39,108 bases of DNA, taken from contig CANRIZ010000023.1 in NCBI GenBank assembly GCA_947630835.1, positions 1-39,108 of the forward strand, given 5' to 3'. Positions 5,082 through 21,770 of the stretch are shown in pieces (position 1 is the first letter of the stretch; each line of letters opens with the position of its first letter). The DNA is from an uncultured Clostridia bacterium (GTDB lineage Bacteria; Bacillota; Clostridia; Oscillospirales; Acutalibacteraceae). The notes beneath the pieces were generated by a model. It had not been told where the DNA came from, did no database searches, and worked only from the letters and a program-made list of their open reading frames with translations. Both the position numbers and the translations under genes were made by a program.

Positions 5082-5516
5082 TTATCCTTTTGACGCCGGC
5101 TTTTCGCTCATTGAAGGATTGTGATCTGTTGCACTGTAGTTCGGGCAAGTAACTTTGTATTTAGAAGCTGTTGCTCCGTCAAATTCTACATTAATTGTAT
5201 ATGCAGCTGTTCCTGCCGGACAAGTAGGAATACCGTTAGTATCTGTTTTGCCTTCAAAGAGCTTTTTGAAACCGGCATCTGAAGAAGGATCTGTCTTGCT
5301 GGTATCGGTAATGGGATCGCCATTATTGCCGGTCATGTAGTAAGTGCTGAGGCAGCCCTTAATAATTCTGATGTTAGAATCGCAAGTCTTAATTCTTGCA
5401 TTCTTTGTTACCGAACTGAAAATCGGCACTGCTACCGCAACAAGGATACCGAGGATAACAACAACGATCATCAATTCAACGAGTGTGAAACCTTTTTTAC
5501 TCATAAGTTTTCTCAT
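5082..5516 (-). CDS. pilA: Type IV prepilin, probable major pilin
   Basis: A 144-residue prepilin. The leader MRKLMSKKG is short and basic, cleavage is expected at G/F, and the mature protein starts FTLVELMIVVVILG with Glu at +5, followed by the hydrophobic assembly helix. The globular part has four Cys (CDSN, GCLS, TCPAG, TCPNYS), enough for two disulfides. The gene sits alone between its own TTTACA/TATAAT promoter and a strong terminator, with a near-perfect ribosome site (AAAAGGGAG). Its codons are richer in GTT, GCA and ACA than those of its neighbours, which prefer GCC and GCG. Isolation, strong signals and codon bias point to high expression, hence the major-pilin call; that is inference. 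The other small pilin at 5719 is the alternative. Confidence 0.88.
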   Translation of the reverse strand: MRKLMSKKGFTLVELMIVVVILGILVAVAVPIFSSVTKNARIKTCDSNIRIIKGCLSTYYMTGNNGDPITDTSKTDPSSDAGFKKLFEGKTDTNGIPTCPAGTAAYTINVEFDGATASKYKVTCPNYSATDHNPSMSEKPASKG

Positions 5517-5616
5517 AGTAAAAATCTCCCTTTTTAAAATAATTTTTTATATGATGGGCAGTGCCCAAGATACCTTAGATGAATTAAGAGCTTCGGGAAC
5601 ATTCCGTAACTCTTAT
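5517..5616 (-). promoter_or_regulatory. Structured 5' leader of the major pilin mRNA
   Basis: About 100 bases between the predicted transcription start and the ATG. It can fold TAAGAG with CTCTTA around an inner CGG/CCG, and a separate tight hairpin TGGGC-act-GCCCA, followed by an unstructured AT-rich ribosome site. I see no match to the c-di-GMP riboswitch cores. It may act in mRNA stability or translation. Confidence 0.4.
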
Positions 5617-5622
5617 AAGCAC

Positions 5623-5651
5623 ATTATATAATATATATACACATTTGTAAA
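5623..5651 (-). promoter_or_regulatory. Strong sigma-A promoter of the major pilin gene
   Basis: On the minus strand TTTACA (5646-5651), 17-base spacer, TATAAT (5623-5628). The upstream 65 bases are almost pure A/T with A- and T-tracts, like an UP element. Confidence 0.75.
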
Positions 5652-5718
5652 GTACTTTTATTAAAAAATGTTAAAAATTTTTAAATTTTTCTAAAAATTT
5701 ATTTAATTTTTTAAATAT

Positions 5719-6123
5719 TCAGTTGTGATTTTCATTGCTGCAAGTAACAATCAAGGCGGTTTTTTCGCCGTTTAGCCTAACGGTATAAACGTCGTCCTCG
5801 GGTATGGGCATCCTGCCGCCGTCAAGCATTGATAAATATTCCGGCGTAAACTTTTCCTTTGCCTCCTGCTCCGAAGCAACCGTAACGCTTTCCGACGTAC
5901 CGTCGGCAAAAATGTCTTTAAGCTCCGCTCCGTCATAAGTCATAAGGTACTGCGTGGCCGCTTTTTTGATTATAGCCATATTACTGCGGCAAGCCTTTTC
6001 CTGCGACCTGCTTACATTTACGCTGTATATCGGCACGGCTATTGCGACAAGAACGCCGAGGATAACAACAACTATCATCAATTCAACAAGGGTAAAGCCG
6101 CTTTTGTTCTTTAATTTTTCCAT
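5719..6123 (-). CDS. Type IV prepilin, small (second pilin)
   Basis: A 134-residue prepilin when started at the ATG at 6123, which follows GGGGGTTAAT; the frame is open further upstream, but that extension would bury the leader. The leader MEKLKNKSG precedes FTLVELMIVVVILG with Glu5. The assembly helix is almost identical to that of the neighbouring pilin, but the globular domain is unrelated by eye, acidic, and has only two Cys (ACRSN and VTCSN), which could form one disulfide closing the C-terminal loop. It has its own consensus promoter. It could be an alternative major pilin or an abundant minor pilin. No terminator is obvious after it, only A/T-rich inverted repeats, so some read-through into the next pilin is likely. 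Confidence 0.88.
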   Translation of the reverse strand: MEKLKNKSGFTLVELMIVVVILGVLVAIAVPIYSVNVSRSQEKACRSNMAIIKKAATQYLMTYDGAELKDIFADGTSESVTVASEQEAKEKFTPEYLSMLDGGRMPIPEDDVYTVRLNGEKTALIVTCSNENHN

Positions 6124-6196
6124 ATTAACCCCCAATCGAAAATGCGTTCCGATTTCGTTTAAAAAGTGTGAATATTCCGTACATCTTAACATTAAT

Positions 6197-6225
6197 ATTA
6201 TATTCGCGCAGGAAGCGTTTGTCAA
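6197..6225 (-). promoter_or_regulatory. Full-consensus sigma-A promoter for the second pilin
   Basis: On the minus strand TTGACA (6220-6225), exactly 17 bases, TATAAT (6197-6202). The leader is about 65 bases. This is the best promoter in the window. Confidence 0.82.
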
Positions 6226-6266
6226 GTATTTGCGCCGTATTTATGCGTAAATTTTTGCCGTAAATT

Positions 6267-6300
6267 GAACAACGCTCCGCCTTACGGCAAAGCGCTGCTC
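6267..6300 (-). terminator. Hairpin at the end of the main pilus operon (weak or partial terminator)
   Basis: GAGCAGCGCT pairs with AGCGTTGTTC (two G-U pairs) around an inner GCC-gtaa-GGC, about 40 bases after the stop of the 393-residue prepilin gene. It is followed by AATTTACGG rather than a T run, so it may stabilise the mRNA 3' end or terminate only partly. An outer TTGAAC/GTTCAA pairing competes with it. Confidence 0.4.
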
Positions 6301-6340
6301 ATCTGAAAGGTTCAAGTTATGAAAAAACGAACGAAAAATA

Positions 6341-7522
6341 CTATTTTGCCATTTCTATGAAATACGCCGTTCCCTCCGCGGCATAGGTCAAAGCCTTTTT
6401 AAGTGCGGGGCTTTCGCTTGCCTTTTCGATTATGGCAGGCGACCAGTCGTAATACTTATCTATTATAAGCTCGCCCAAAGCGTTGTTCTTTAATACGTTG
6501 TCCCTGAACGAGCGCAGCGTAGTCTTAACGCCCTCGCCTATTCTGTTGCCCGCCATAAGGAAGCTGATACTGCAGCCCGAGCCTATGTTCATTTCGCTCG
6601 AATTGCCCGTGGGAGTGCCGAAAGCGAAATCATAAAGCGAAATATACCTGATAACGTTCGCATGTTCCTTTAAATAAGGATAGGTACTTGTGCCGTCGCC
6701 CACATAAACCCCCGCCGTTCCGGTTTTATCCGTAACGTTGGGTAAGTTCGGGAGCTCGTCTCTTGTTTCACCTTCGGGAGCGTCCGTCGTATATGCGTAG
6801 CCCGCAACATAGTTGTTTGTAAGCGCATACATGTTTTTGTTGTTCATATTAATTTCCGCTTTGCTGTCCAAGGTGTTTTTAAGCGAAAACGACGTATGCA
6901 GCTCGTAATGGAAATCGTAATCCTTTGCGCTTTCAACGGTGATTGTTACGCCGCTTGGCAAATACTTATGCGGCTCGGTGCTTGTTTCCTTTTCAACGTT
7001 GTTTGTGTCTTTTTCAAAGGCGTCAATCGAAACCTCGTAATTTATATCGACCTTGGCTTCATCCGTGAACTTAAACCTGCGTGCCGTTTCCTGACCGCCG
7101 TTTAATACGTAGAAGTAACCGTTATATACGAACAGATAGGTATAGGTCTTGTCGGCGCCGTCCGCCCTGCCCGAAAAGGTCAGCGAGCCGTCGTCCGGAT
7201 TTTCCGTAAACGTGCCGAGCTCGGGGCAGGCGGTAAAGCTCTTGTTTGTATTTGTTTCCTCGGGATTGGAATACAACAAATCGACATTCGTCGCCGTGGC
7301 AAGCGAACCCGTACTCGCGTCAGCCTGAAATGCGCTCATTATCGCCTGAACCTCGGTTTGGATTATATAAAGCTGTTCAACCATACGGTATCTGCTCCAT
7401 ATAGAGCCGATAAGCTGGCCTATAAGCCCCGCCGCAAGGCCCATAAGGGCAAGAACGACCAAAAGCTCGACCAAAGTAAAGCCGCGCTTATCGCTTTTCA
7501 TTTTACCGATTACCTTGAACAT
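6341..7522 (-). CDS. Prepilin-like minor pilin (393 aa)
   Basis: A 393-residue protein with a prepilin N-terminus: leader MFKVIGKMKSDKRG, then FTLVELLVVLALMG with Glu5 and a long hydrophobic helix running into an amphipathic one. The rest is a large, mostly beta-type soluble domain of no family I recognise. Size and operon position fit a minor pilin of the GspJ/PilW kind that helps form the initiating tip complex. The ATG at 7522 follows GGAGG at nine bases, so the longer leader is real. It is the last gene of the long pilus operon and lies 38 bases after the giant prepilin gene. Its role as a tip or priming subunit is inferred from position and family architecture only. Confidence 0.8.
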   Translation of the reverse strand: MFKVIGKMKSDKRGFTLVELLVVLALMGLAAGLIGQLIGSIWSRYRMVEQLYIIQTEVQAIMSAFQADASTGSLATATNVDLLYSNPEETNTNKSFTACPELGTFTENPDDGSLTFSGRADGADKTYTYLFVYNGYFYVLNGGQETARRFKFTDEAKVDINYEVSIDAFEKDTNNVEKETSTEPHKYLPSGVTITVESAKDYDFHYELHTSFSLKNTLDSKAEINMNNKNMYALTNNYVAGYAYTTDAPEGETRDELPNLPNVTDKTGTAGVYVGDGTSTYPYLKEHANVIRYISLYDFAFGTPTGNSSEMNIGSGCSISFLMAGNRIGEGVKTTLRSFRDNVLKNNALGELIIDKYYDWSPAIIEKASESPALKKALTYAAEGTAYFIEMAK

Positions 7523-7560
7523 TGGCGCTGTCCTCCATTCCGAAGCTTGATTTTTTTAAC

Positions 7561-10500
7561 TTATCCTTGGCTTGCGGCAGAGTTGATTCCGCTGACCGAA
7601 ACCGTGGTAAAGTCGCCTGTTTTTTCGTCGAATACCAAGGCGGCTGTTGTTACCGCGCCGTTTGAATTCTGGATGTATTCATCCGAATTTGCGCTCACCT
7701 TAGTCTTGCAGAAATTCCAGGAATCCGTGGGGTTCTTTGACCAGTAAACAACGGCGTTTTCATCCGCGTCATTTTCCCCGTTTCCGTTTGTGTCGATATA
7801 ACCGAACGCATACCAAATGCCTTGGTTATACGAAAGCTGAATGATATTTACCTTGTCGCTGTCGGCAACCTTAACTGCTTTCCAAAGATATATGTTGTTG
7901 AGCCTGTCTACGCAATATTTTACGTTGACGTAGGCTGCATGCTCGCCGTAGCCGCTGTAGGGCTTCCAAGTAACGCCGTTATCAAGCACGCCGCCCGAAG
8001 CGCATACGTTGGCGGGTGAAATATCCTTGTCGGTCGACTGGTTGCCAGCCGCTACCCAAACGTCGTCGGCACAGCAAACGTCGTTAATCCTTGTAAGCGT
8101 TGAGATAAAGCCGAATTTATCTTCCTTGCCCAAGCTTACGGAGGAATTGTCGTAAAATTCCTTGCCCTTGTCCGAGCCTATTTTCTTGTACCAGGTGTAA
8201 TTTTCAAACTCTTTCTTAACGGAGGTTATTTTTGAGTTTTTAAGATTTTCCTGATCGTAGAACCAGCTCATAAGCGTACCGTTGGAGGTTCCCCACATAG
8301 CCTGAGCCTTGCCGTCGCCCGTAGTACCCCAGTTACAGGTGGTACATTCGGTCTGCGCCAAGGGATGGCTGTTGGTGCCGTACTGATCGTTTCCTTCGGC
8401 AACATTGGGGGAATATCCGGGCTGCGGAGCTTTATTGGAATCGGACGAAATGTTGAAATAATTTCTGTGATATTTTGTATTCCAGCCGTTAATGGCGTTC
8501 TTGCCGTCCTCGCCGGTGTACTGATCCGTTCCGTAGAACTGGTGGAACACGTTGGTTTCCTTTTTAAGCGACCAGCCCTTACCGGAAGCGAGGTTGCCGG
8601 CGTCGTCCTTTTCCGTACCGTCGCCCGTGGCACGGATATATACTATACCTGTATTATATACCTGATTTACACGGGTACAATAGTCATAGTCCGCGAACAT
8701 ATAGCTTAACGTATAGCCGACCGCAAGGGAGATATTGTTGCCCGTAAGGTCGTCGTGGAAGCTCTTAACATCGAGCATTGTGACGTTATCCCTGAGTCCG
8801 CCCGAGAAGAAGCTGTGATCGAACTTACCGCTTATGCCGTTAAACTTTTCAAAGAAGTAGTCCGAACCCGTTAAGCCCTTGATTATCGGGATTTCGGGGT
8901 CGTCAAGCGAAATTGCGAACGGGTGCGAAAGGTAACCCATTGTAATATCGACTTCCTTGCCGCCCGTAACATAATAGTCGTTGCCCTGTGCGGGAAGCGC
9001 TATACCCGTGGCAAGTATGCCGTTTGTAGTCTGCCCCGCCTTGTAATAATAGGTATTGCTGCTCTTGCTCGGGAACGGATATAAGCTGTCCTTATCGGAG
9101 GATTTTTCATCGCAATATCTTAAAAGATCCCTATAGCTTGTGCTTGTGAAAGCGTCCTTTGAAAGAGTCGTTGTGTTTGTATATATACCGCCGAATTTAC
9201 CCGTAGGTACCCAGGAATCATAAACATCGCTGAAGCCTACTCCGTAAGTGCCGACGTGTACCCATGCTTTCCAACCGCCGATATTTGCGGTTTTCCAAGC
9301 CCAAGCGTCTATAACTGCGGGAATATATCCGCAGTAAAGCGTGTAGGACTGCGTGGGATATACGTTGCTGTTAAAAGAGGTACTGTCCTGTGATTCATAG
9401 TAAGTCGGGTTATCCTTGTTTATCTGAATAGCGCCGACCGAGGTTATGGTAATAAGCGACGGGTCGTCCTTATATTCGTAGTCCGTTGCCTTTATATAGC
9501 CTTCCCTGTTAAGTATGGAGGCTTTGTTGTTGCCGCCGGTAAGCCAGGCAATATTGTTTACGGATTCATCTTGACTTGATTTTGAAGAAGGACCGTAGTA
9601 CTCGTAATTGTTGCCGAGCCAGTTTTTTACCTTTACAGCGCCCGAAAGCGTGGTGTAATACTCGTCGCCGGCGGATACGTTCGCCGTATAGTAGTTGGAG
9701 GTCAAAGCCTGATAATTGAACAACGATACCTTATCGGACTTGAACAATTCGTTTATCTTTCTTCCGTTGGTTTCAACAATTTCCTGACCCGAACGGAATA
9801 TTGACTTAAACATAGCCTGCGTTGTGAGCGTGGGTGTAAGCGTTTCATGTGCGCCCGCCTGCGCCGCGCCCTTGTTATTGACATAGGCATAGCGGTCATA
9901 GTTTGTAAGGTAATCGCCGCCCCAGTAATAGTTTCCCGTATTCTCGTTTCTCCAGAATCTTCTTACCTGGCCTGCGTCGCCGCCCATTACATAATAGCCG
10001 TAATCGTTTACGCCGCCCGCGCCGTTGTCGCCTTCGCCCTTTTCAACCCACTCAACGTCGTTCATAGCGGATTTAAGCTCGTAGTTCTCGTCGCCGTTCC
10101 GGCCTTTCATCTGCTTTGCGAGAATTTCCATTTCGCCCGTTTCGGTGTCGACGCCCTTGGTTACATAGTAATAATATTTGCCGTCGGAATTTTTCTCGCC
10201 GACCATTATTATTTCGGGAGCGCCTATTTCAACCTTTACCTTATACTTTACGCCGTTGTTGTCGCAGTATTTTATATAAAGAGGCGAATTTTCAAAGCTG
10301 ATTGTGTTGTTTGCGCCCTTAAAGGTGAAAACCGCAACCTTTGCGCCGTTGCCGTCGTCCTTAGAGGCAATATCATAGTATTTGGTTTCTACCTTTACCT
10401 CGTTGCCCGAAGAATTTGTATTGAAAACCTCAAAATGATAATCCGTAGTGTTATCCTTATTAAAGGCTTTCTCGTCAAATTCAAAGCCTTTGGGCGCAAC

Positions 10501-10938
10501 GACTATATCCTTTGTAAGGAAGTCGTCGGTAAGAACCGAGGGGAAGCATATCATAGCGTTGCCCGAATTCTCGGTATAAAATGTTACGTAAGAATTCCCC
10601 TCTTTAAGGTTCTCGGAAATAATATGTCCGTTTATGCCGCCTTCATCCGAAAAATTTACGGAAGTACCGTTTGCGCTCAACGTTAAAGGAACATCCGAAA
10701 CATCCGTTTCATATCCTATGGCGTTATTTCCGTTTATATTGGCGACAAGCCGTTCCATAAGGCTTGCCCGTTCGTAGGTTTTTTTCGTAACCTCTCCGGC
10801 GGTACGAATGTTTCCGAAATACGTCATAAACGCCGGTGTAAACACCCAAATAATAAGCACAAGCAAGGTCATAGCAACCAATATTTCGGCTAACGTCATA
10901 CCTTTTTGGGAACGTAATGCGCCTTTACTGCGTTTCAT
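7561..10938 (-). CDS. Giant prepilin-like protein (1125 aa), candidate pilus-tip adhesin
   Basis: The N-terminus is a prepilin: leader MKRSKGALRSQKG, then MTLAEILVAM with Glu5 and a hydrophobic helix to about residue 45. Roughly 1070 residues of Tyr/Asn/Gly/Trp-rich soluble sequence follow, many times the size of a normal pilin head. No known domain is certain. Near the C-terminus two segments (VWVAAG about 960-965 with a later GVTWKPY; GIWYAFGY about 1040-1047 with a later DSWNFCK) resemble BNR/sialidase-type beta-propeller blades. Between the second pair, DTNGNGENDADE (1049-1060) fits an EF-hand-like calcium loop with D, N, N, E, D, E at positions 1, 3, 5, 7, 9 and 12. AAGGAGGAAGCTTT precedes the ATG. 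Position between the PilX-like gene and a minor pilin suggests a tip-displayed binding subunit, comparable in role to PilY1 but fused to a pilin stalk. Confidence 0.78.
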   Translation of the reverse strand: MKRSKGALRSQKGMTLAEILVAMTLLVLIIWVFTPAFMTYFGNIRTAGEVTKKTYERASLMERLVANINGNNAIGYETDVSDVPLTLSANGTSVNFSDEGGINGHIISENLKEGNSYVTFYTENSGNAMICFPSVLTDDFLTKDIVVAPKGFEFDEKAFNKDNTTDYHFEVFNTNSSGNEVKVETKYYDIASKDDGNGAKVAVFTFKGANNTISFENSPLYIKYCDNNGVKYKVKVEIGAPEIIMVGEKNSDGKYYYYVTKGVDTETGEMEILAKQMKGRNGDENYELKSAMNDVEWVEKGEGDNGAGGVNDYGYYVMGGDAGQVRRFWRNENTGNYYWGGDYLTNYDRYAYVNNKGAAQAGAHETLTPTLTTQAMFKSIFRSGQEIVETNGRKINELFKSDKVSLFNYQALTSNYYTANVSAGDEYYTTLSGAVKVKNWLGNNYEYYGPSSKSSQDESVNNIAWLTGGNNKASILNREGYIKATDYEYKDDPSLITITSVGAIQINKDNPTYYESQDSTSFNSNVYPTQSYTLYCGYIPAVIDAWAWKTANIGGWKAWVHVGTYGVGFSDVYDSWVPTGKFGGIYTNTTTLSKDAFTSTSYRDLLRYCDEKSSDKDSLYPFPSKSSNTYYYKAGQTTNGILATGIALPAQGNDYYVTGGKEVDITMGYLSHPFAISLDDPEIPIIKGLTGSDYFFEKFNGISGKFDHSFFSGGLRDNVTMLDVKSFHDDLTGNNISLAVGYTLSYMFADYDYCTRVNQVYNTGIVYIRATGDGTEKDDAGNLASGKGWSLKKETNVFHQFYGTDQYTGEDGKNAINGWNTKYHRNYFNISSDSNKAPQPGYSPNVAEGNDQYGTNSHPLAQTECTTCNWGTTGDGKAQAMWGTSNGTLMSWFYDQENLKNSKITSVKKEFENYTWYKKIGSDKGKEFYDNSSVSLGKEDKFGFISTLTRINDVCCADDVWVAAGNQSTDKDISPANVCASGGVLDNGVTWKPYSGYGEHAAYVNVKYCVDRLNNIYLWKAVKVADSDKVNIIQLSYNQGIWYAFGYIDTNGNGENDADENAVVYWSKNPTDSWNFCKTKVSANSDEYIQNSNGAVTTAALVFDEKTGDFTTVSVSGINSAASQG

Positions 10939-10971: not shown

Positions 10972-12729
10972 TCACGCCAAAAGCCATTTCAGCGAGGTTG
11001 AATCCGTTGCGTCCGGCGGGATAAGCGAAGCGTAAGTGTCCTGCCTGAACTTATCCAAATCAATCTTTCTCATTGCATTATATGTTATAACGCCCGTAGG
11101 TTTGTGTTCGGAATTTTCAACGCCCGTTACATAGCTTGTGGGCGTGTTGTTTGAGGCGGAATAGTAAATCATCATAATCTGACCGAGTCTTTCGTTTACG
11201 TTCTCGGTATATCTGCCGGAGGCTACCGTGCTGTCAATAAAATACTTGAATAAGTCTATGCCGTAGCCGACAGGTCCGCCCTCGTATGCGGGTAAATCGT
11301 CGTCGTAATAATAGGCATCGCCCGAAGAAAATACCTTGTACCTGTAAGTGCCTGCGTTGGGTATCTGAACGTTTACGAAAACGTCGCCGCCGAAAAATAT
11401 TTTTCCGCATTTTCCGAAGCCGTTTACTTCCTTTTCCACTTCGTAAGCGCCCGTTCCCTCGTTCAGCTTATAAACCTTGGAACGGTATATACCGTTGTCG
11501 TTTACCGGGTCCATATTTGTGGCGGTTTCGGGATTGGGGGTTCCGATTACAACGTTGCCCAAAGCATAATTCTTAAGAAACAGTTGAAAAAGATTTAATG
11601 TTTTCTCAAGGAACTGCAACTTTGGGAAACCGTAAACATACATTTCAATGTCGCCGTTTACTATTATATTGTTTCCCCGCAGGAAAAGGGTGTTGAAATG
11701 CGACATAGACGGAGTTACGTCGACATTTGTGTTTAAGAACAAATTGGATTCGCCTATAAGCGCTACCATATTGTCCTGATTTTCTTTGAATTTAATCCCG
11801 ACAGATTTTGATCCGTCCGATTCGGGGCTGTTCAGTACCATATTGCCCGAAGTAAAGCCCATCAGCAAAGGTATGCTACGGCCGTCGGTAGGAATTGGAA
11901 GGGTTCCGGAAGTGCCTATGAACCATTTAAGTATGGGTACATTCTCAAAGAACGAATATTTAACGTTATACTCGGACGCCATTTTAACTTCGCCGAGTAC
12001 GGAAAAATTCGGGTTTTTCGCTACGGGAACGGTTTGCGTTTCCGTATTGCCGCTCTCATCGGTATAGGTAAGGGTTTTGTTGGTGCCGCTTAAGCTTGCG
12101 TCAATAATGCCCGTTTCGGCGTCATAATATCTGCCTAAGCCCTGCGTAGGTTCGGAAATAAACGCTTTCTTCTTTGCAACCGCATTGTCGTTGCCGTAGG
12201 CGTGACCCGTAGCGGTGAATACGCGCTGTCCCTCGCTCAACTCTACAAGATACTGGGTAAATGTGTTGCCGGATCCCGACGCTAAGCCGGAAGAAACCTT
12301 TTCGTTTTTAATCGCCTTTTGTACGAAGTTAAAAGGCTTGCTCTCTATTTCGACCTCATAATAGCCGATTATTTCATTGTCGGGATGTGATTGCGCGGTT
12401 GCTTCGTCAACATATTGATAAGCTCCGCCCGAATAAATCATATAAACCTTGTTTGAATTTATGATTTTACCGTCGTCGCTTGTATCTACAATAAGCTTGG
12501 TTGCGTCATCGTTGTTGCTTTTTACCGCAAGCTGAAATGCGTATGAAGCGGACTCTACGCCGGCCTGGGCAAGGTATTCCGCTTTTTTCCTGTCCGACAT
12601 AAAGCGGACGGATTGAAGGCTCGTAACGCTGTAAAGAAACATAACGGTAGCCATGGCGGAAAGCACAACAAGCAAGAAAATTACGGAAACAATAGCAAAT
12701 CCGCCGTTTTCTTTTAACTTCGTCTTCAT
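10972..12729 (-). CDS. PilX/GspK-like pseudopilin (585 aa)
   Basis: The N-terminus MKTKLKENGG followed by FAIVSVIFLLVVLSAMATV and then SDRKKAEYLAQAGVESA matches PilX/GspK-type pseudopilins. If cleavage follows the second Gly, residue +5 is Ser, not Glu. Lack of Glu5 is a known property of GspK and some PilX proteins, which cap the fibre. The soluble part is far larger than PilX (about 170-200 residues) and contains a central region rich in short hydrophobic beta strands with Asn turns (about 300-400), possibly a beta-solenoid or layered beta fold. The ATG at 12729 follows GAAGGTGATTTGTT. It lies between pilB and the giant prepilin. A capping role together with the giant prepilin is inferred, not shown. 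Confidence 0.75.
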   Translation of the reverse strand: MKTKLKENGGFAIVSVIFLLVVLSAMATVMFLYSVTSLQSVRFMSDRKKAEYLAQAGVESASYAFQLAVKSNNDDATKLIVDTSDDGKIINSNKVYMIYSGGAYQYVDEATAQSHPDNEIIGYYEVEIESKPFNFVQKAIKNEKVSSGLASGSGNTFTQYLVELSEGQRVFTATGHAYGNDNAVAKKKAFISEPTQGLGRYYDAETGIIDASLSGTNKTLTYTDESGNTETQTVPVAKNPNFSVLGEVKMASEYNVKYSFFENVPILKWFIGTSGTLPIPTDGRSIPLLMGFTSGNMVLNSPESDGSKSVGIKFKENQDNMVALIGESNLFLNTNVDVTPSMSHFNTLFLRGNNIIVNGDIEMYVYGFPKLQFLEKTLNLFQLFLKNYALGNVVIGTPNPETATNMDPVNDNGIYRSKVYKLNEGTGAYEVEKEVNGFGKCGKIFFGGDVFVNVQIPNAGTYRYKVFSSGDAYYYDDDLPAYEGGPVGYGIDLFKYFIDSTVASGRYTENVNERLGQIMMIYYSASNNTPTSYVTGVENSEHKPTGVITYNAMRKIDLDKFRQDTYASLIPPDATDSTSLKWLLA

Positions 12730-12768: not shown

Positions 12769-14460
12769 TTAAACTATAACTCTTATCAACTCTTCAAGAG
12801 AGGTTCTGCCCTCCATAACCTTATAAAGGCCTTCGTCTTTAAGGGTGTGCATGCCCTGACTGCACGCCAAGGCTTTAACCTCGGTAACGGTCGCCCTGTC
12901 AAGGATAAGGCGTTTCATCTCCTCGGTAACGGTAAGGAACTCGAATACCGCTTCACGTCCCTTGTAGCCTGTATTGTTGCAGGTAATACAGCCGTTTGCC
13001 TTATACAATTTAAAGCTGTCGCCGTCGTATCCGTACTTATCGAAGTCCGGAATTATCTTTTTAATATCTTCCCTGCTTATTTCGTATTCCTCTTTGCATT
13101 TCGGGCAAAGCTTACGCACAAGTCTTTGCGCGAGAACGCCTACGAGCGACGAAGCCGTAAGGAAAGGCTGCACGCCCATTTCGTCAAGACGGGTAACGGC
13201 GCTGGGTGCGTCATTCGTATGCAGGGTGGAGAGAACCATATGGCCGGTAAGGGACGCCTCAATAGCTATCTTTGCGGTTTCGGCGTCACGAATTTCACCG
13301 ACCATTACTATATCGGGGTCGGAACGCAAAACAGAACGAAGCGCCGCAGCGAAGGTCATACCGGCTCGGTTGTTCATTTGTACCTGATTTATACCCGACA
13401 TTCTGCGCTCTACGGGGTCCTCAAGAGTAATGGTATTTTTATCGTCGGAGCTTATCTCGTCAAGCGTAGCGTAAAGCGTTGTGGATTTACCCGAACCTGT
13501 AGGCCCGGTAACAAGCAGAAAGCCGTAAGGCATATGTATCGCCCGGCTGAATCTGTCGAACTGCCTTTTTGAAAAGTGCAAATCCTTAAGCTGTACTACG
13601 CCCTGCGATCTTTCAAGAAGTCGGAGAACTATTTTTTCGCCGAATACGGTCGGCATGGTGGCTATACGGATATCAAGAGTTCTGTCCTCAAACCTTACCG
13701 TAGCGCGTCCGTCCTGTGGTATACGCTTTTCGGCAATATCCATACCGCCCAAGACCTTAACCCTCGATACGACCGAGGGGAAAAGCTTTATGGAATTTTG
13801 CATAATTTCCTGCAAAACGCCGTCGATTCTGAAACGAACCCTCAAATATTTTTCAAGCGGTTCTATATGTATATCGGAAGCTCCCGTTTTTATAGCGTTG
13901 TTGATAACCTGATTAACAAGCTGAACGGCGGGCTTATCGTCGATTGAATACTCCTCGGAAACGTCGCTGTCGCTTGCGGTGTCGTCGTCATCGTCGTAAT
14001 TGTCAAGGGTGGAGTTCATATTGGCAAAGTTTTCGATAGCGGCGGCAAGCTCCATATCGGGGACAACCACAGGACAAATTTCAAGATTTGTCATAAGGTG
14101 CAGATTGTCTATCGTAATAATATCGTTGGGATTTTTCATCGCAACGTAAACGGTTTTGCCCTCCTGATAAAGCGGCAATATGTTGTTCCTTAGTGCCATT
14201 TCAGGAGTGATAAGGTTGGCAACCGCAACGTTTACACCTATTTCATTTATGGAAACATATTTATATCCGGTTTTTTTTGCAAGTATTCTTGCAATATCGT
14301 CCTCTGTGCAATAGCCTAACTGCGTAAGTATTGTACCTATCAGATTTTTGCTGGTCTTTTGTACTTCAAGAGCCTCCGCAAGCTGCTCTTTAGTTATAAT
14401 TCCCGCCTCGATAAGCCTTGCGCCGAGGCTGCCCGGAATAGGTGTTACACTATTGGCCAT
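12769..14460 (-). CDS. pilB: Type IV pilus extension ATPase PilB (GspE family)
   Basis: A 563-residue hexameric ATPase that powers pilin addition at the inner face of the membrane. An N-terminal MshEN-like domain (about 12-150) precedes an acidic linker with five Asp in a row (about 156-160). The core shows Walker A GPTGSGKSTT (319-328), the Asp-box-type TLEDPVE, Walker B DIVMVGE (383-389) and the His box TGHMVLSTLHT (405-415). Four Cys (C452, C455, C491, C494) form the zinc site typical of PilB/GspE and absent from PilT. MshEN domains of this family often bind c-di-GMP, so post-translational control is plausible, although I did not verify the binding motif. The ATG follows GGGGAGAGTAGTTA. 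Confidence 0.96.
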   Translation of the reverse strand: MANSVTPIPGSLGARLIEAGIITKEQLAEALEVQKTSKNLIGTILTQLGYCTEDDIARILAKKTGYKYVSINEIGVNVAVANLITPEMALRNNILPLYQEGKTVYVAMKNPNDIITIDNLHLMTNLEICPVVVPDMELAAAIENFANMNSTLDNYDDDDDTASDSDVSEEYSIDDKPAVQLVNQVINNAIKTGASDIHIEPLEKYLRVRFRIDGVLQEIMQNSIKLFPSVVSRVKVLGGMDIAEKRIPQDGRATVRFEDRTLDIRIATMPTVFGEKIVLRLLERSQGVVQLKDLHFSKRQFDRFSRAIHMPYGFLLVTGPTGSGKSTTLYATLDEISSDDKNTITLEDPVERRMSGINQVQMNNRAGMTFAAALRSVLRSDPDIVMVGEIRDAETAKIAIEASLTGHMVLSTLHTNDAPSAVTRLDEMGVQPFLTASSLVGVLAQRLVRKLCPKCKEEYEISREDIKKIIPDFDKYGYDGDSFKLYKANGCITCNNTGYKGREAVFEFLTVTEEMKRLILDRATVTEVKALACSQGMHTLKDEGLYKVMEGRTSLEELIRVIV

Positions 14461-14494: not shown

Positions 14495-15091
14495 TCAGCC
14501 TTTTGAAAACTCAACCACGGTAATCTCGGCGTTCATTTTGTTGCTGTCTTTATCCGTTTTGGTCATATTGATTTTATCTATTCTCTTAATTTGCTTGTCG
14601 TTGACCGTAGCGCGGCAAAAGCTCATAATATCGTTATATTCGCCCGAAATCGTAATATACGCGTTGACCTGATTTACAAGCCCGGTATTTACAAGCTCGT
14701 CAAATTCAACGGAGTTAAGGCTGCAATTATACTTTTCAACGGTATTCTCTAAATCTATCATAATCTTCATCTGGTCGATAGGTTCCGATGAAATCATCTC
14801 GTCGTATTCGAGCTTCCTCGCTTTGTAAACGTCGCTCTGCTTTTTCAGCGCCAAAAGCTGATTTATTGCCTTTTGGTTGTCGGAATACTCAACCTTAATT
14901 TCGTCTATTTCACTGCGGGTTTCTTTAATCCCCATACTGCCGTAAACGATAAGCCCGATAAGAGCGATAATCATTATAATGAGTATGGCTATAACCACCC
15001 TGACGTCTTCAAGTATATTCTTTTTTTCGGATTTATCGCCCTTAGCTTCGCTTGTTTTATTCTTCTTTTTGATAACGTCGCTCAATGCCAT
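14495..15091 (-). CDS. pilO: Type IV pilus platform protein PilO
   Basis: A 198-residue bitopic protein: a Lys-rich cytoplasmic N-terminus (about 1-28), one membrane helix (about 29-51), a coiled-coil stretch (about 52-95), then a small ferredoxin-like periplasmic-type domain. This is the PilO architecture, and the start lies just after pilN (the pilN stop is three bases upstream of the ATG, with AGAGGAGGATTAAGCT as ribosome site). PilO dimerises with PilN through the coiled coil and ferredoxin-like fold to connect the cytoplasmic PilM ring to PilP. Sequence identity in this family is low, so the call rests on topology, size and gene order. Confidence 0.87.
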   Translation of the reverse strand: MALSDVIKKKNKTSEAKGDKSEKKNILEDVRVVIAILIIMIIALIGLIVYGSMGIKETRSEIDEIKVEYSDNQKAINQLLALKKQSDVYKARKLEYDEMISSEPIDQMKIMIDLENTVEKYNCSLNSVEFDELVNTGLVNQVNAYITISGEYNDIMSFCRATVNDKQIKRIDKINMTKTDKDSNKMNAEITVVEFSKG

Positions 15092-15094
15092 AGC

Positions 15095-15856
15095 TTAATC
15101 CTCCTCTGCCTGCGTCTGAGTTTCCTCCGACGTTGTTTCGGAACCGTCCTCCGATTCCGTTGCCGCGTCGGTTGCGGCGGCGGTTGTGTTGGCAACGTCG
15201 GTGGTCTGAACCTCGCCGTTATCATCCGTTACAGCCTCGCCGTTATCGTCGGTAACCGTTTCGTATTTGGGCGCAACGGTAGTAACCTCAAGCGCGTTGG
15301 AAAGGCTCAACGCCAATGTAAACGTGACCGATTTTTCATCCCCATCGGCGCTTACCGTTCTGGTTATACCGACCGTTTCAACCTGCTTAACGGTTTTCTG
15401 CATTTCCTCCGTTTTGAAAAGCTCTACGTAATCTTTATAATCCTGATAGTCCTGAACCGTGCAGTTAAGGGTGCAGATACCCTTGCTGAACCAATCCTCA
15501 AGGTCTATCTGTGTAATCTGAACGTAATCGGGAGTTATGTTTGATACCGTTGTGACAAAGTTGACAGCCTCGGAATCCTTGGGTAAAATGCTCTGTATCA
15601 TCTTTTGAGCCGATACGAGGTCGTCATATATAAGCTGATATTCCTGAAGGGCGGGGAATTCGTCCTCAAGCTGCCGATTTTTTTCGACAATGTTTGAAAG
15701 CTTCGACTTGAGAAGCTGATGCTTTATCAAAATTCCGCCGTAAACTATGAACAGGCACACAAGCACAACAAGAGCAACCTTTGAAATGAGGTCAACCTTC
15801 TTTTTACCCTCAAGGTGACGCCTGTAGCTGTCGGGCAATAAACTTACTTTAAACAT
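15095..15856 (-). CDS. pilN: Type IV pilus platform protein PilN, with acidic Thr-rich tail
   Basis: A 253-residue protein beginning MFKVSLLPDSYRR; the short cytoplasmic segment with the NLLP-like SLLP motif is what PilN uses to bind PilM. One membrane helix (about 26-46), a coiled coil (about 50-85) and a ferredoxin-like domain follow. After about residue 190 there is an unusual tail with a tandem duplication (two copies of TDDNGE) and a Thr/Ala/Glu-rich acidic end, not present in usual PilN. Such a tail would face the wall and could be flexible or glycosylated. The ATG overlaps the end region of pilM closely (TAATGAATG), which suggests coupled translation. Confidence 0.9.
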   Translation of the reverse strand: MFKVSLLPDSYRRHLEGKKKVDLISKVALVVLVCLFIVYGGILIKHQLLKSKLSNIVEKNRQLEDEFPALQEYQLIYDDLVSAQKMIQSILPKDSEAVNFVTTVSNITPDYVQITQIDLEDWFSKGICTLNCTVQDYQDYKDYVELFKTEEMQKTVKQVETVGITRTVSADGDEKSVTFTLALSLSNALEVTTVAPKYETVTDDNGEAVTDDNGEVQTTDVANTTAAATDAATESEDGSETTSEETQTQAEED

Positions 15857-15859
15857 TCA

Positions 15860-16840
15860 TTATCCCTCCAATGCCTGAATTGCAAGGCCTATACAGCCCG
15901 TAAATTTATTGATAACGTTCTGCTCGAGTCCGAAATTAATTGATTTGTAAAAATCGGGAATTGTAACGGGCAGACTTACCATACCGGTTATTTCGTTTAA
16001 AAGCTCCTGCGAATGAGGCGCCGTTGTCAAAAAGTAGATATGCTCTATGGGAGCTATGTCGGGCCGCATGGAATAGTAGCCTACGGAGGACGAGGTTTCG
16101 CTGCCGAGCATTGAACCTACAGCCTCGATATCCTCTTTTTCAAGCTCGTATCCCGCTTCGCTGTTGTAAAGCCTTTTTACGTTTTCGGCAACCCTTTCAG
16201 GTATGTTGATTGAACGCGCCATCGAAATCTCGTCGCCCTGTATGACAAGGAAATTGAGCAGGTCGTCGTTCATATTCAAGACCGCATATTTTTCCTCGCC
16301 GACAACGTCCGTCTTAAGCGCCCTGCAATATGACAGCAGAGTTGCGTCAACGTCCGTTACCTGAAACTTTGAAGCCGAAAGTATGTTTATGTATTGCTCT
16401 ATCATATTTCTTCTTGCGGCAACAAGCAGCACGTTAACGGTTTCCTGCTCCTCATCGTTAAACCCGTGACCCGCAACAACGTAGTCTATTTCCATCTCCT
16501 GAACGGGAATGGGTATAAACTCCTGAGCCTGCAGGAGAACCATATTTCTCAATTTATCGTCGTCAACCTTGGGGAACGTGGCGTATCTCATAATGACGTT
16601 TTCGTTGTTTATGCCTACAACTATGTCGGAAGACCTGAAGCCGCCGCTCTGTATAAGCTCCGTAAGAGCGATATTGAAAGCCTCCTGATCCCTGATAAAG
16701 CCCTCGTCTACCGTACCCTCCGGCAGGGGAATGTTTCCGCAGGCAAGTATCTCATAAACGCCGTTGTTGCGGCTTATTTCGGTCGCCCTGATTTCTTTTG
16801 TGTCAACCTCAAATCCGATTATGCTTTTAATTTTAGCCAT
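15860..16840 (-). CDS. pilM: Type IV pilus actin-like protein PilM
   Basis: A 326-residue cytoplasmic protein of the FtsA/PilM actin-like fold that forms a ring under the membrane and grips the PilN tail. Visible are the opening FEVDTKEIRATEI nucleotide-binding strand, the PilM-typical VVGINNENVIMRYATFPKV and the LLQAQEFIPIPVQEMEIDYVV segment, and the terminal GCIGLAIQAL. The ATG at 16840 is preferred over one six codons upstream because GGGGGAG lies nine bases before it, and the upstream ATG would place that site inside the gene. It lies between pilC and pilN in canonical M-N-O order. Confidence 0.93.
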   Translation of the reverse strand: MAKIKSIIGFEVDTKEIRATEISRNNGVYEILACGNIPLPEGTVDEGFIRDQEAFNIALTELIQSGGFRSSDIVVGINNENVIMRYATFPKVDDDKLRNMVLLQAQEFIPIPVQEMEIDYVVAGHGFNDEEQETVNVLLVAARRNMIEQYINILSASKFQVTDVDATLLSYCRALKTDVVGEEKYAVLNMNDDLLNFLVIQGDEISMARSINIPERVAENVKRLYNSEAGYELEKEDIEAVGSMLGSETSSSVGYYSMRPDIAPIEHIYFLTTAPHSQELLNEITGMVSLPVTIPDFYKSINFGLEQNVINKFTGCIGLAIQALEG

Positions 16841-16857
16841 ATTTCGTATCTCCCCCA

Positions 16858-18063
16858 TTAATAGCCTTCAACAGATGTCGAAGCCTGGAATATCGGCAAG
16901 TAAAGGGCTATAATCATTGCGCCTACTATACCGCCTATGCCTATAAGGGCAATAGGCTCAATCATAGCCTTCAGGTTTCTTGAAATAGTTTCAACGTCCT
17001 CCTCGTAAAACTCGGCGACTTTGTCAAGCATCTCGGGAAGAGAACCCGCTTCCTCGCCTATAGCTATCATACCTACTACCATGGGAGGGAACAAACCGCT
17101 TTTGTCAAGCGAATCGGATATTGCCTTGCCCTCCTCAATATCTTCAATAGCGTCCGCAACCGCCTTTGCAATCAAATCGCTTCCCGACGTGGGACCCGCG
17201 CTCTGCAAGGCTTCAACTGCGGTTACGCCGCCCGCAAGAAGCGTTGCAAGCGTACGGCAGAACCGCGCTATAACCTGTTTCGTGTTCAATTCCCCGACTA
17301 TGGGAGCCGAGAGCTTGTGGTTCTCCCAGAAAATATGTACGGGCTTGCTTTTAATAACAAAGTAGAGAACCGTGATAATTATTGCAACCGCAAGAATCCA
17401 AAAATACCATTGCGTTCTAAGGCTTGTGGAAACGTTGAAAATGAACTGAGTTATGGGATTCAACTCCGTTCCCGCCGGCATCATACTCTGGAACGTGGGA
17501 ACCATAAACGCAAGCATCGCTATCAAAAGCACAATAGCGAACAAGCCTATGTTCTTGGGGTAGGAAACCGCAGATTTTATATTGTCGTTAAGAGCCTTCT
17601 GCTTTTGAAGCTGGTTGGCAAGGCTTGAAAGCGACTGTTCAAGGATACCGCCCACTTCGCCCGTTGCAATCATAGCGATAAACAAATCGTTGAAAATCTT
17701 TGGATACTGTGCAAATGCGTCGGACAAAGGCATACCGCTTTCGACGTTTTCGCAAATTTCCGAAATTGCGGCGGAAAGCGTGGCGTTAGAGGTCTGCTTT
17801 GCAAGCGTGGAAAGAGCCCTCGTTACCGGAACGCCGGCGGACATCATTGCCGCCATCTGCCTTGAAAATATCGCAACATCCTCGATACCGACCTTTTTAC
17901 CTCTCGTCTTTTTTCTTTCGTTAACGGTTTTTTCTTTAATTTCTGTGACGACGATACCGGCTTCCCGGAGCTTATCCATAGCCTCCGATGAACTTTCGGC
18001 GACAACCTCGCCGTGAACATTTTGCCCCTGCCTGTTCATACCGCCATATACAAAGGATGCCAA
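16858..18063 (-). CDS. pilC: Type IV pilus inner-membrane platform protein PilC (GspF family)
   Basis: A 401-residue polytopic protein with two homologous T2SSF domains (about 65-190 and 270-395) and three membrane helices, the last at the C-terminus. Diagnostic pieces are FSRQMAAMMSAGVPV in the first repeat, FCRTLATLLAGGVTAVEAL in the second, and MIAIGEEAGSLPEML. It couples PilB/PilT rotation to pilin movement. The start is TTG at 18063, supported by AGGAGG nine bases upstream. The N-terminus MASFVYGGMNRQGQNVHG is typical for the family, which confirms the frame start. Confidence 0.95.
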   Translation of the reverse strand: MASFVYGGMNRQGQNVHGEVVAESSSEAMDKLREAGIVVTEIKEKTVNERKKTRGKKVGIEDVAIFSRQMAAMMSAGVPVTRALSTLAKQTSNATLSAAISEICENVESGMPLSDAFAQYPKIFNDLFIAMIATGEVGGILEQSLSSLANQLQKQKALNDNIKSAVSYPKNIGLFAIVLLIAMLAFMVPTFQSMMPAGTELNPITQFIFNVSTSLRTQWYFWILAVAIIITVLYFVIKSKPVHIFWENHKLSAPIVGELNTKQVIARFCRTLATLLAGGVTAVEALQSAGPTSGSDLIAKAVADAIEDIEEGKAISDSLDKSGLFPPMVVGMIAIGEEAGSLPEMLDKVAEFYEEDVETISRNLKAMIEPIALIGIGGIVGAMIIALYLPIFQASTSVEGY

Positions 18064-18097: not shown

Positions 18098-19198
18098 TTA
18101 GAATCCGCCCGTTGAAAGCAGTCTTCTGACTTCTTTTTCGTCTACGCAGAATTCAATAACGGATTCTTTGGAAATTTTCTGTTCCCTGTAAAGCCTGATA
18201 AGAGCTTGGTCCATAGTCTGCATACCCTGCATCTGTCCGGTTTGCATCGAGGCGTAAAGCTGATGCTCCTTTTCCTCACGGATAAGGTTTTTTACGGACG
18301 GGGTATCTATCATATATTCTACCGCGACAACCCTGCCCTTGCCGTTAATGGTGGGTATGAGCTGTTGGGAAATAACCGCCTTTAAAGAGTTTGCAAGCTG
18401 CTGCCTTATCTGATTTTTTTGCCCCTCCGAGAAAGAGTCTATAATACGGGATATTGTCATAGGGGCGGTCTGCGTATGAAGCGTTGAGAACACAAGGTGT
18501 CCCGTTTCAGCGGCGGTAACTGCAATGGAGATACTTTCGGGATCTCGCATTTCGCCTATCATAATGGTGTCGGGGTCGTGACGAAGAACCGTTCTCAGCG
18601 CGTTTGCAAAGGAATGTGTGTCCGCGCCGATTTCCCTCTGCCTTATTGTTGATTTAATGTGCGTATGCAAAAATTCTATCGGGTCTTCAACGGTAACTAT
18701 ATTTGTTTCGTATCTTTCGTTTATGTATTTAATCATAGAAGCGAGGGTTGTCGATTTGCCCGAGCCGGTAGGTCCGGTTACAAGCACAAGCCCTCTCGGC
18801 AAATTGCAAAGCCGCTTAATGTCGCTCGGAAGCCCGAGCTTATCGAGATCGGGAATTTCAAACGGAATCGCCCTGAAAACCGCCGCAAGCGAACCTCGCT
18901 GAATTATGACGTTGCCCCTGAATCTGGCGCAGTCGGGAACCGCTACCGCAAGGTCAAGCTCCCAATCGTTTATAAGCCTTTCCTTCTGTACCGGAGAGAG
19001 TACGGAAGAAAGCATACATTCAATGTCCTCGGGAGAAAGCGCCGGATAATCCTCCTGCCTTTTCAAATCACCGTTAATTCTTATACAGGGTTCGACTCCC
19101 GCAACGAGGTGCAGGTCGGAGCCTCCCGTTTCAACGGTTTTCCTTAAAAGATCGTGCAATGTGCAGGGGAAATGGCTCTCCCTTCCTTCAAAAAACAA
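18098..19198 (-). CDS. pilT: Type IV pilus retraction ATPase PilT
   Basis: A 366-residue ATPase that depolymerises the pilus, giving twitching and pulling force. It has the PilT N-terminal PAS-like region (TGGSDLHLVAGVEPCIRINGDL), Walker A GPTGSGKSTT (142-151), VEDPIEF, Walker B TIMIGE (211-216), the His box TGHLVFSTLHT, and the C-terminal SVKNLIREEK, the counterpart of the AIRNLIRE retraction motif. It lacks the four-Cys zinc site of PilB. The start is a TTG at 19198 with AAGGAG twelve bases upstream, a slightly long spacing; a second TTG twelve codons in is possible but has no better ribosome site. Hairpins lie between it and the preceding gene. Confidence 0.95.
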   Translation of the reverse strand: MFFEGRESHFPCTLHDLLRKTVETGGSDLHLVAGVEPCIRINGDLKRQEDYPALSPEDIECMLSSVLSPVQKERLINDWELDLAVAVPDCARFRGNVIIQRGSLAAVFRAIPFEIPDLDKLGLPSDIKRLCNLPRGLVLVTGPTGSGKSTTLASMIKYINERYETNIVTVEDPIEFLHTHIKSTIRQREIGADTHSFANALRTVLRHDPDTIMIGEMRDPESISIAVTAAETGHLVFSTLHTQTAPMTISRIIDSFSEGQKNQIRQQLANSLKAVISQQLIPTINGKGRVVAVEYMIDTPSVKNLIREEKEHQLYASMQTGQMQGMQTMDQALIRLYREQKISKESVIEFCVDEKEVRRLLSTGGF

Positions 19199-19321: not shown

Positions 19322-21076
19322 TTAAGCCGCGTCCATTTCGGCAAGCAAGGCCTTAACGTAATCTACCATTTCGGGCGTTGCCCTAACGTAGGTTGTGCAG
19401 CTTGTTGTATCGCCGTTCTTGGAAGTAACGGTTACGAACTGGAATTCCGCGGTTGCGGGAATTTCGGGATGCGTCATACGCAGCGCCTCGATTCTCGACC
19501 TGCCTATGGAAGCGCTTGCCGTGCTTTCAACCGCCCTGTACTCCACTTCGGAGGTGGTTGCGGTATCGAGAGCGTCAAGCAGGGACTTAATCTGCTCCTG
19601 TCTTGAATAGTCACAGCTTACTATCAAAGCCTTTGAAACCTTCGGGTAAGCGTTGGTCTTGAAGGTTACTTCGCCTACGTCGATGTTTGCGAGCCTGTCG
19701 AGCATTTCCTGAGCCGTGCAGTTCTTAAGGTCGTAGATAAAGAACTGATTTTCAAGCTTCATACTGTCGGCATAGCTTTCGGTATCAAATTCCTTAATTT
19801 TGCCCTCCGCCTTATTTACTTCGGATTCAAGGCCCATAAGCCAAATTTTCTTCGACATCTTTTCCGGACCGTAAAGGCTTACGTCATAGGGGAAGCTTCC
19901 GAGGATTTCAACTGCCGCCGCCCTGTCGATATATTCGAGGGCAACCTCCCTGAGGATTGTATCCTCGGTCGGAGCGGTCGAGGTTCCGGGCTCGGAAGGC
20001 GCAGCCGTGCCGCTGTCGCCGGGCGTGCTTGCTCCGGGCTGCGTACTCGGCGCTGTGGTTGTCGGCTGTTCGTTGCCTGTGGAAGGTTCGATAACCTCCT
20101 GATTGGAGCCCTCAAGGTTTTTGCCTGTGAGAGGCTTATCTACAATACTTTTAATCGCTTTAATATCGGCAAGCGCCGCTCCTGTCACATATGTATATAA
20201 AGTGTACGGTCTTGACGCAAGTACGATTCCCGCGTCCATACCGAGATTTGAAAGCAATCCGCTGAACTCGGTCGCGTCAATATTTTCAAGCTGTATCGAG
20301 GTAAAGTTTGAAGTGATAAGCGACGCGCCCGCCGAAATGTTGCTGCTTACGTCGAGTATATCGACAAGCTCCTTGATTTTGGCAAGCTCCTTGGGATATG
20401 CGCTTATGTAAACGGTGCTTGTGTCCTGAGGAGTATCAACATACTGTATATTTTCAAGCCCGAGCGAACCCGCCTGCGATTTAAGGGTATCGACGGTAAT
20501 GTATTTCAAGTTAAACTTAGTCATAACGACCTTGTCGACGAACGTGCCGTTAAGGTCCGCCGCCGTGCCGACCATAATCGTGTTGCCGTCCTTTAAATAT
20601 GAGAGATCCGCAAGTCTTGTAACATAGTCAACAGCCTTTAGGGGTGATACGTTTTCAAGGTTTACGCTTACTTTCTGATTGGGCTGACCGTCGAAGATTA
20701 CCGTGTAACCCGCATTTCTTGCTATAGCCGTAAGAGCGTCCCTTACGTCCGCCTCGTTAAGATTTAAAGTAAGTCTTGACGTGAACCAGGATCTTTCCTC
20801 GGTAGCCGAACCGAGGGGAACCTTGATTACCCTGCCAGCATAAAGCTTATCGGCATTTGAGAGCTTATTGGCAAGCATAATGTCGTTTGCCGAAACATTG
20901 TATTTTTTTGCAACGCCCGCAAGGCTGTCGCCCGATTTCACAACGTAGTATTGATAATCGGTGCTTGTGTCGTTGCTTGAGCCCATAACCGTGACGGGCA
21001 TTACTGCGTTGGCGAGCAAAACGACCGCCAGCAGAGCTACGAGAAACGCCTTTAAACTTTTTCTTGAACCGTACAT
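19322..21076 (-). CDS. LysM plus secretin-N-domain protein, PilQ substitute without secretin barrel
   Basis: A 584-residue exported protein. A signal peptide (about 1-32) is followed by a LysM domain (about 41-87; YVVKSGDSLAGVAKKYN ... AGRVIKVP) that should bind peptidoglycan. Residues about 101-171 (LTLNLNEADVRDALTAIAR ... KVSVNLENVSPLKAVDYV) are an STN/N0 domain as in PilQ. At least three or four N1-like beta-alpha-beta repeats follow (about 183-243, 254-315, 372-432, 440-506), interrupted by a Pro/Thr/Ser linker (319-371). The last about 75 residues look like another half repeat (YVRATPEMVDYVKALLAEMD). The C-terminal secretin channel domain is absent, as expected for a cell with no outer membrane. 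It lies between the PilP-like gene and pilT. I infer a wall-bound collar through which the pilus passes. Confidence 0.8.
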   Translation of the reverse strand: MYGSRKSLKAFLVALLAVVLLANAVMPVTVMGSSNDTSTDYQYYVVKSGDSLAGVAKKYNVSANDIMLANKLSNADKLYAGRVIKVPLGSATEERSWFTSRLTLNLNEADVRDALTAIARNAGYTVIFDGQPNQKVSVNLENVSPLKAVDYVTRLADLSYLKDGNTIMVGTAADLNGTFVDKVVMTKFNLKYITVDTLKSQAGSLGLENIQYVDTPQDTSTVYISAYPKELAKIKELVDILDVSSNISAGASLITSNFTSIQLENIDATEFSGLLSNLGMDAGIVLASRPYTLYTYVTGAALADIKAIKSIVDKPLTGKNLEGSNQEVIEPSTGNEQPTTTAPSTQPGASTPGDSGTAAPSEPGTSTAPTEDTILREVALEYIDRAAAVEILGSFPYDVSLYGPEKMSKKIWLMGLESEVNKAEGKIKEFDTESYADSMKLENQFFIYDLKNCTAQEMLDRLANIDVGEVTFKTNAYPKVSKALIVSCDYSRQEQIKSLLDALDTATTSEVEYRAVESTASASIGRSRIEALRMTHPEIPATAEFQFVTVTSKNGDTTSCTTYVRATPEMVDYVKALLAEMDAA

Positions 21077-21130: not shown

Positions 21131-21649
21131 TTATTTTTTCATCTCTATGGTTCTCGTTTTTTCGCCGAGAGAGAATGTTACGGAAGAATCCGTAATAGCC
21201 TCGACAAGCCATTGAGAGCTGCCGACGTAATCGCCTACCTGGAGAGTGTACGAAGCGTACTGTGTTTGGACCACCGCAGTCCAATAACCGTCGGAATTAT
21301 AGATTAAACCGGTTAATTTTGCGTTTGCGATAACGTCCTCGGCAAAGGGATCTACGTTTTCGGCAACGGTTTCGTCCTGAGTTCGCTCGATTTCGGGAAG
21401 CACCGCAACCGCCTGACCCGCAACCGTCGCGCTCTCGTCAAGCTCCGTGTCGGATTTGGGACCGGAGAGAATAATAATAACCGCAACGACAACCGCTATA
21501 AGAACAAAGAGAGCCGGCAAAATTATTTTCATTTTGGGATTTTTATCGAAAAAAGCGGTAACGGAGCTGCCTTTTCGCGCGTCCTTTTTCCCGCCTCCGG
21601 ATTTGAATTTTTTAAACAAATCCTTAACGTCCATATCTGCTAAGCCCAT
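21131..21649 (-). CDS. pilP: PilP/GspC-like platform protein
   Basis: A 172-residue bitopic protein: basic cytoplasmic segment, one membrane helix (about 40-62), an acidic spacer, then a compact beta domain beginning NVDPFAEDVIANAKLTGLIY and including YWTAVVQTQYASYTLQVGDYVGSS. The DPF motif, the L-x-G-x-I strand and the VGDYVG turn are PilP/HR-domain features. PilP normally links PilN/PilO to the PilQ N0 domain, and here its gene directly precedes the N0-bearing LysM protein, which supports both calls. The ATG at 21649 has GGAGG eight bases upstream; the TTG five codons earlier is itself part of that ribosome site. This is the first gene after the pilus operon promoter. Typical PilP is a lipoprotein, whereas this one has a membrane helix, more like GspC. 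Confidence 0.8.
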   Translation of the reverse strand: MGLADMDVKDLFKKFKSGGGKKDARKGSSVTAFFDKNPKMKIILPALFVLIAVVVAVIIILSGPKSDTELDESATVAGQAVAVLPEIERTQDETVAENVDPFAEDVIANAKLTGLIYNSDGYWTAVVQTQYASYTLQVGDYVGSSQWLVEAITDSSVTFSLGEKTRTIEMKK

Positions 21650-21770
21650 ACAGTAACCCTCCAAAATAAATATCGCAGCGAAATTATTTTAACTGATAAA
21701 AAACAACTTAAAATTCCGATAAACGCCGAGGGGAAAAACAATCCCCCGAGCATAAATATACATTAAACTT

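Follow-up and report, generated by a model that had tools for sequence, protein, structure and literature searches.

We report here a protein built of PilQ-type N domains, with no secretin barrel, encoded within a type IVa pilus (T4aP) gene set of an uncultured Clostridia bacterium of the family Acutalibacteraceae. The window, meaning the whole stretch of DNA analyzed, is 39,108 nucleotides long (contig CANRIZ010000023.1, assembly GCA_947630835.1). We use LQ as the label for its LysM/N0/N1-repeat protein, which consists of a signal-type helix, a LysM domain, one PilQ-type N0 domain, four N1-like domains, and a fifth domain of like topology. The reading that we favor, and consider fairly probable, is that LQ is a PilQ-related stack of N domains that sits on PilP as a collar where membrane and wall meet, in a monoderm T4aP of a distinct subtype. 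The conserved pair of PilP and a barrel-less PilQ in monoderms provides a concrete, testable candidate for the wall passage of pili and may show how the pili of monoderm gut bacteria are anchored in the thick wall or get through it.

In diderms, PilP joins PilMNO to the N0 domain of PilQ, and PilQ AMIN and the LysM protein TsaP hold peptidoglycan (PMC9239104, PMC7545093). PilP and PilQ are taken in reviews as absent from monoderms, the outer membrane being lacking (PMC6916266). Pelicic 2019 describes monoderms without PilP and secretin and suggests a large PilO for wall crossing, and Denise 2019 deduces that monoderm T4aP lost the secretin repeatedly (PMC6668835). Imam 2011 reports that some pil operons of Gram-positive bacteria contain PilQ homologs, in too little domain detail to show whether these have barrels (PMC3244431). 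Antunes 2016, citing Melville and Craig 2013, treats the passage of type IV pili (T4P) through the thick Gram-positive wall as an open question. A preliminary description of LQ had stated that such a component is not generally described for the well-studied clostridial pili (C. difficile, C. perfringens); in keeping with this, the open-access literature (subscription papers and preprints lay outside the search) yielded no description of a barrel-less LysM-N0-N1 protein.

Domain architecture of LQ

LQ was characterized by sequence, domain searches, profile comparison, and a structure model, which gave the following features.

19322..21076, minus strand: LQ, 584 aa
20987..21076, minus strand: signal-type N-terminal helix, residues 1-30 (sequence; model helix at 5-25; cleavage putative)
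20816..20947, minus strand: LysM domain, residues 44-87 (PF01476, E 3.2e-14)
20549..20785, minus strand: N0/STN domain, residues 98-176 (PF07660 above cut-off; 99.2% to PilQ N0)
20339..20539, minus strand: N1 domain, residues 180-246 (PF03958 above cut-off; 97.7% to PilQ N1)
20129..20323, minus strand: N1-like domain R2, residues 252-316 (95.8% to PilQ N1, 98.6% to LQ's own N1)
19970..20128, minus strand: Ser/Thr/Pro/Gly low-complexity linker, residues 317-369 (sequence; pLDDT <50 at 318-368)
19769..19969, minus strand: N1-like domain R3, residues 370-436 (95.7% to PilQ N1)
19553..19759, minus strand: N1-like domain R4, residues 440-508 (93.8% to PilQ N1)
19325..19552, minus strand: C-terminal domain R5 (22% to PilQ N1, 78% to R3; weak N1 sequence match)

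The preliminary description had proposed a PilQ-type N0 and N1-like repeats without a barrel. Domain searches and profile comparison bore this out, and the N0/N1 fold that it expected is present in the structure prediction, where R5 also has the topology of the N1-like domains. Pfam gave no match to the secretin barrel domain PF00263 in LQ or in 24 homologs, and LQ segments reached 1.0% or less against a secretin barrel profile. The Foldseek and VIA match lists consisted mostly of N0/N1 folds (folds missing from these lists were not used for conclusions). TsaP chain 6ve2_O was a match at E 0.66, via LysM. The Ser/Thr/Pro/Gly linker differs in length from homolog to homolog.

LQ shares with the PilQ/secretin family a PilQ-type STN/N0 domain followed by N1 (Secretin_N), a gene directly after pilP within a T4aP gene set, and a peptidoglycan-binding module ahead of N0 (AMIN in PilQ, LysM in LQ). 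It differs from PilQ in lacking the secretin barrel, in carrying four to five N1-like domains where PilQ has one, and in its monoderm host. A further trait of the secretin family is a 12-15-mer ring in the outer membrane; the window's genome has no Omp85. LQ is under purifying selection like its neighbors, with dN/dS values of 0.071 and 0.067, compared with 0.074 for PilO, 0.050 for PilP, and 0.034 for PilT (the remaining comparisons were saturated).

PilP partner, host envelope, and phylogeny

The gene directly upstream of LQ encodes the following.

21131..21664, minus strand: PilP-like protein, one transmembrane helix and an HR-type C-terminal domain (PF04351, E 0.0032, below cut-off)

This protein scores 17.9 bits against PF04351 (cut-off, 25.6), and 3 of its 23 relatives match that model at E <= 0.1. 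Its profile reaches 97.6% to PilP found beside full PilQ in other Bacillota (controls, 12.2% or less), and a PDB search returned Neisseria PilP (2ivw, E 0.0018). PilP lies directly upstream of LQ in 39 of 42 assessable loci, and the two form one fused gene in 2 of the 42 (two genomes). In 33 loci of the same survey, the gene after LQ encodes PilT (31 loci) or PilC (2 loci). The pairing, described earlier as adjacency, is therefore stronger than was claimed: it is conserved and occurs as a natural fusion. Contact between the PilP HR domain and the LQ N0 domain is likely. Here, as in PilP-PilQ N0 and the GspC/GspB HR-GspD N0 pairs, a one-transmembrane HR-type partner stands beside an N0 domain (the GspC-GspD complex has been solved; 3oss); LQ differs in being a barrel-less N0 partner, with HR and N0 naturally fused in the two genomes.

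A secretin elsewhere in the genome had been named as a finding that would speak against the preliminary description. No PF00263 match above the cut-off was found in the window's own genome, in 245 genomes of its order, or in 28 LQ genomes (all drafts). Four hits below the cut-off (L073, L160, L161, and L162) were rejected as ABC permeases with a chance VPxxGDIP motif, a trap for weak-hit surveys with this model. Across the phylum, a secretin above the cut-off is present in 94 of 378 genomes, none of them in the window's class; some of the 94 may carry a type II secretion system rather than PilQ. Omp85 is absent from all 28 LQ genomes, the window's included, and present in 4 of 4 PilQ genomes and in all 80 tested of the 94 secretin-bearing genomes. 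The LQ hosts are therefore very likely monoderm, as had been assumed. The finding is also relevant to the diderm-first view of Firmicutes, since the barrel follows Omp85 in the tested genomes.

The LQ systems group as a single clade in unrooted trees that also contain PilQ-bearing and PilP/PilQ-less clusters: PilB (22 LQ of 37 rows, 100/100), PilC (30 of 48, 100/100), PilT (30 of 42, SH-aLRT 100), and PilM (29 of 45, 98). In the N0-N1 tree, LQ segments likewise form one clade against PilQ (38 LQ of 54 rows, 100/99). The approximately unbiased test allowed grouping of LQ with either PilQ-less or PilQ clusters (PilB, p 0.32; PilC, 0.37 and 0.14). It is likely, and because the trees are unrooted not firmer than that, that LQ is a PilQ whose barrel was lost. 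The earlier picture of a PilQ with a lost channel thus holds as to kinship and probable loss; it fails as a plain truncation, because LQ has more N1-like domains than PilQ.

Within the family, LQ with a match beyond LysM was found in the window genome and 1 of 80 others (G057). In the order, 10 of 245 genomes contain it. The sample of the class, 391 genomes, gave 18 with a match beyond LysM at E < 1e-30 (a raw tally of 315 was mostly LysM alone). A named-genome scan gave 19 LQ loci, all in metagenome-assembled genomes of uncultured Clostridia or Firmicutes, and a scan of viral contigs with PilT gave no matches. Other T4P clusters of the order, one of them in the window's family (G299), have PilM, PilN, and PilO without PilP or LQ by profile search. 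In G415, the LQ gene is split over two reading frames (L143:3482-4906).

Proposed role and alternatives

In the mechanism that we propose, PilP would sit in the cytoplasmic membrane atop PilM/N/O, and its HR domain would bind the LQ N0 domain in the way that diderm PilP binds PilQ. N0 and the stack of N1-like domains would, judging from their fold family, oligomerize into a short collar around the growing pilus, and LysM, where present, would tie this collar to peptidoglycan, being dispensable in some relatives. The lack of an outer membrane would make a barrel unnecessary. With the barrel taken away, the diderm parts list points to a collar where membrane and wall meet. Ring formation, peptidoglycan binding by LysM, and the role in wall crossing are putative. 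A more ambitious form of the proposal, the 'wall secretin', is tentative: a PilQ-type N0/N1 ring or tube on PilP, tied to peptidoglycan, would guide the pilus through the thick wall with no membrane barrel. It would descend from the T4P of a diderm ancestor, remodeled by the gain of N1 domains, and would have a pilus-less envelope role in one genus.

Several observations weigh against the collar in its simple form. The window protein has the LysM anchor predicted earlier, but many relatives do not share it. Of the 24 homologs in alignment A5, 20 have LysM by Pfam; Pfam finds none in L048, L145, L151, or L158, a check that took in the f32 type (L145) and the PilP-LQ fusions. L154 consists of LysM-N0-N1 alone. 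(LysM matches of our own profile in L048-L051 and L151 were an artifact, as the profile included LysM-less rows.) In the f18 loci, PilP-LQ is separated from the pilus genes and neighbors genes for alanine racemase, HolB, and PSP1. PilM, T2SSF, and above-cut-off T2SSE are all missing from three g104 genomes (92-97% complete) and likewise from G204 (75% complete). The survey of Clostridia suggested in the preliminary description thus upheld the pairing with PilP, but not in every case with a pilus. A collar role is therefore not the whole story.

That LQ is instead a wall-bound, non-ring scaffold, tying PilP/PilMNO to peptidoglycan against retraction force while the pilus crosses the wall unaided, seems rather unlikely. 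This scaffold would be comparable to TsaP and FimV in diderms. It would fit the LysM domain of the window protein and most A5 homologs, the pairing with PilP, the clusters of the order that have neither PilP nor LQ, and Streptococcus sanguinis, which is reported to form T4P without PilP and PilQ (PMC6916266). The LysM-less and PilP-fused forms, however, retain the entire N0-N1 stack, a pattern that favors the stack over the wall anchor as the function kept. Secretin N0/N1 domains, moreover, form rings, as established for PilQ, GspD, and InvG.

Still more doubtful is that the PilP-LQ pair acts in the envelope independently of pili, for example with wall cross-bridge synthesis, and joined the pilus operon of some lineages later. 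In its favor, no filament genes were detected in g104 genomes, which nevertheless retain the pair; in L052 and L053 it lies divergent to genes for FemAB and alanine racemase, with HolB and PSP1 farther on in L053, and alanine racemase, HolB, and PSP1 are near it in L048. Against this stand the PilT or PilC gene that follows LQ in the 33 loci above and the pairing of PilP with N0, a pilus or secretion trait. The f18 rows also form one group inside the LQ clade of the unrooted tree, a placement that later pilus loss would produce. Loci that keep PilP-LQ without an above-cut-off type IV filament ATPase or a detected platform protein or PilM are L048, L050, and L051 (G178, G096, and G118) and L053 (G204); alanine racemase, HolB, and PSP1 genes are nearby.

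Finally, that LQ is left over from, or an accessory to, a normal secretin at another locus is highly improbable, being contradicted by the secretin-free draft genomes and favored by no point that we found.

The pilus gene set and known systems

All genes of the set lie on the minus strand: PilP-like, LQ, PilT, PilC, PilM, PilN-like, PilO, PilB, PilX-like, four prepilin-like, and PilD. Together they supply the components of a type IVa machine, PilN by position only.

18098..19198, minus strand: PilT retraction ATPase (TIGR01420 above cut-off)
16858..18063, minus strand: PilC platform protein (PF00482, 1.1e-61)
15860..16858, minus strand: PilM (PF11104, 2.3e-21)
15095..15856, minus strand: PilN-like protein (position and size only; no Pfam/NCBIfam match)
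14495..15091, minus strand: PilO (PF04350, 1.6e-5)
12769..14460, minus strand: PilB extension ATPase (PF00437, 1e-137; TIGR02538, 4e-184)
10972..12729, minus strand: PilX-like pilus-associated protein, tentative label (position; no Pfam match)
5082..10938, minus strand: four proteins with prepilin N termini (7561-10938, 6341-7522, 5719-6225, 5082-5516; PF07963 N_methyl)
1275..2087, minus strand: PilD prepilin peptidase (PF06750, PF01478)

A hairpin (21913-21889) and a promoter-like site (21799-21771) are compatible with an operon start at pilP; this signal is weak because the terminator and promoter numbers found there lie close to those of shuffled sequence (15 versus 14.0 and 20 versus 13.7, respectively).

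Like the S. sanguinis T4aP, the system is monoderm with PilM, PilN, and PilO; in S. sanguinis, PilP and PilQ are reported absent and PilO is large, whereas PilO here is ~200 aa (PMC6916266). TsaP and FimV resemble LQ as T4P envelope components with a LysM domain, in diderm systems. In those systems, LysM and the secretin belong to different proteins (TsaP consists of LysM plus a TsaP-specific C-terminal region), whereas LQ combines LysM and N domains in one chain. PilQ of L186 (G862, other Bacillota) also carries N0-N1 together with LysM on a single chain and is encoded beside PilP; unlike LQ, it keeps the barrel, has LysM at the C end, and occurs in a genome with Omp85. This gene (L186:9252-10775) encodes a full-length PilQ with two C-terminal LysM domains.

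The prepilin-like protein at 7561-10938 (minus strand) is very large (1125 aa), with an N_methyl match just below the cut-off, and its relatives reach 1354 aa in L045. Upstream of pilP, 21940-23457 (minus strand) encodes a Wzz/tyrosine-kinase-like protein with a Tyr/Gly-rich tail, relatives of which are likewise located in many LQ clusters. Some f32 clusters carry a sigma-70-type factor gene between pilC and pilM (L145:12483-13181, also L146 and L149), with regions 2 and 4 identified in the L145 protein.
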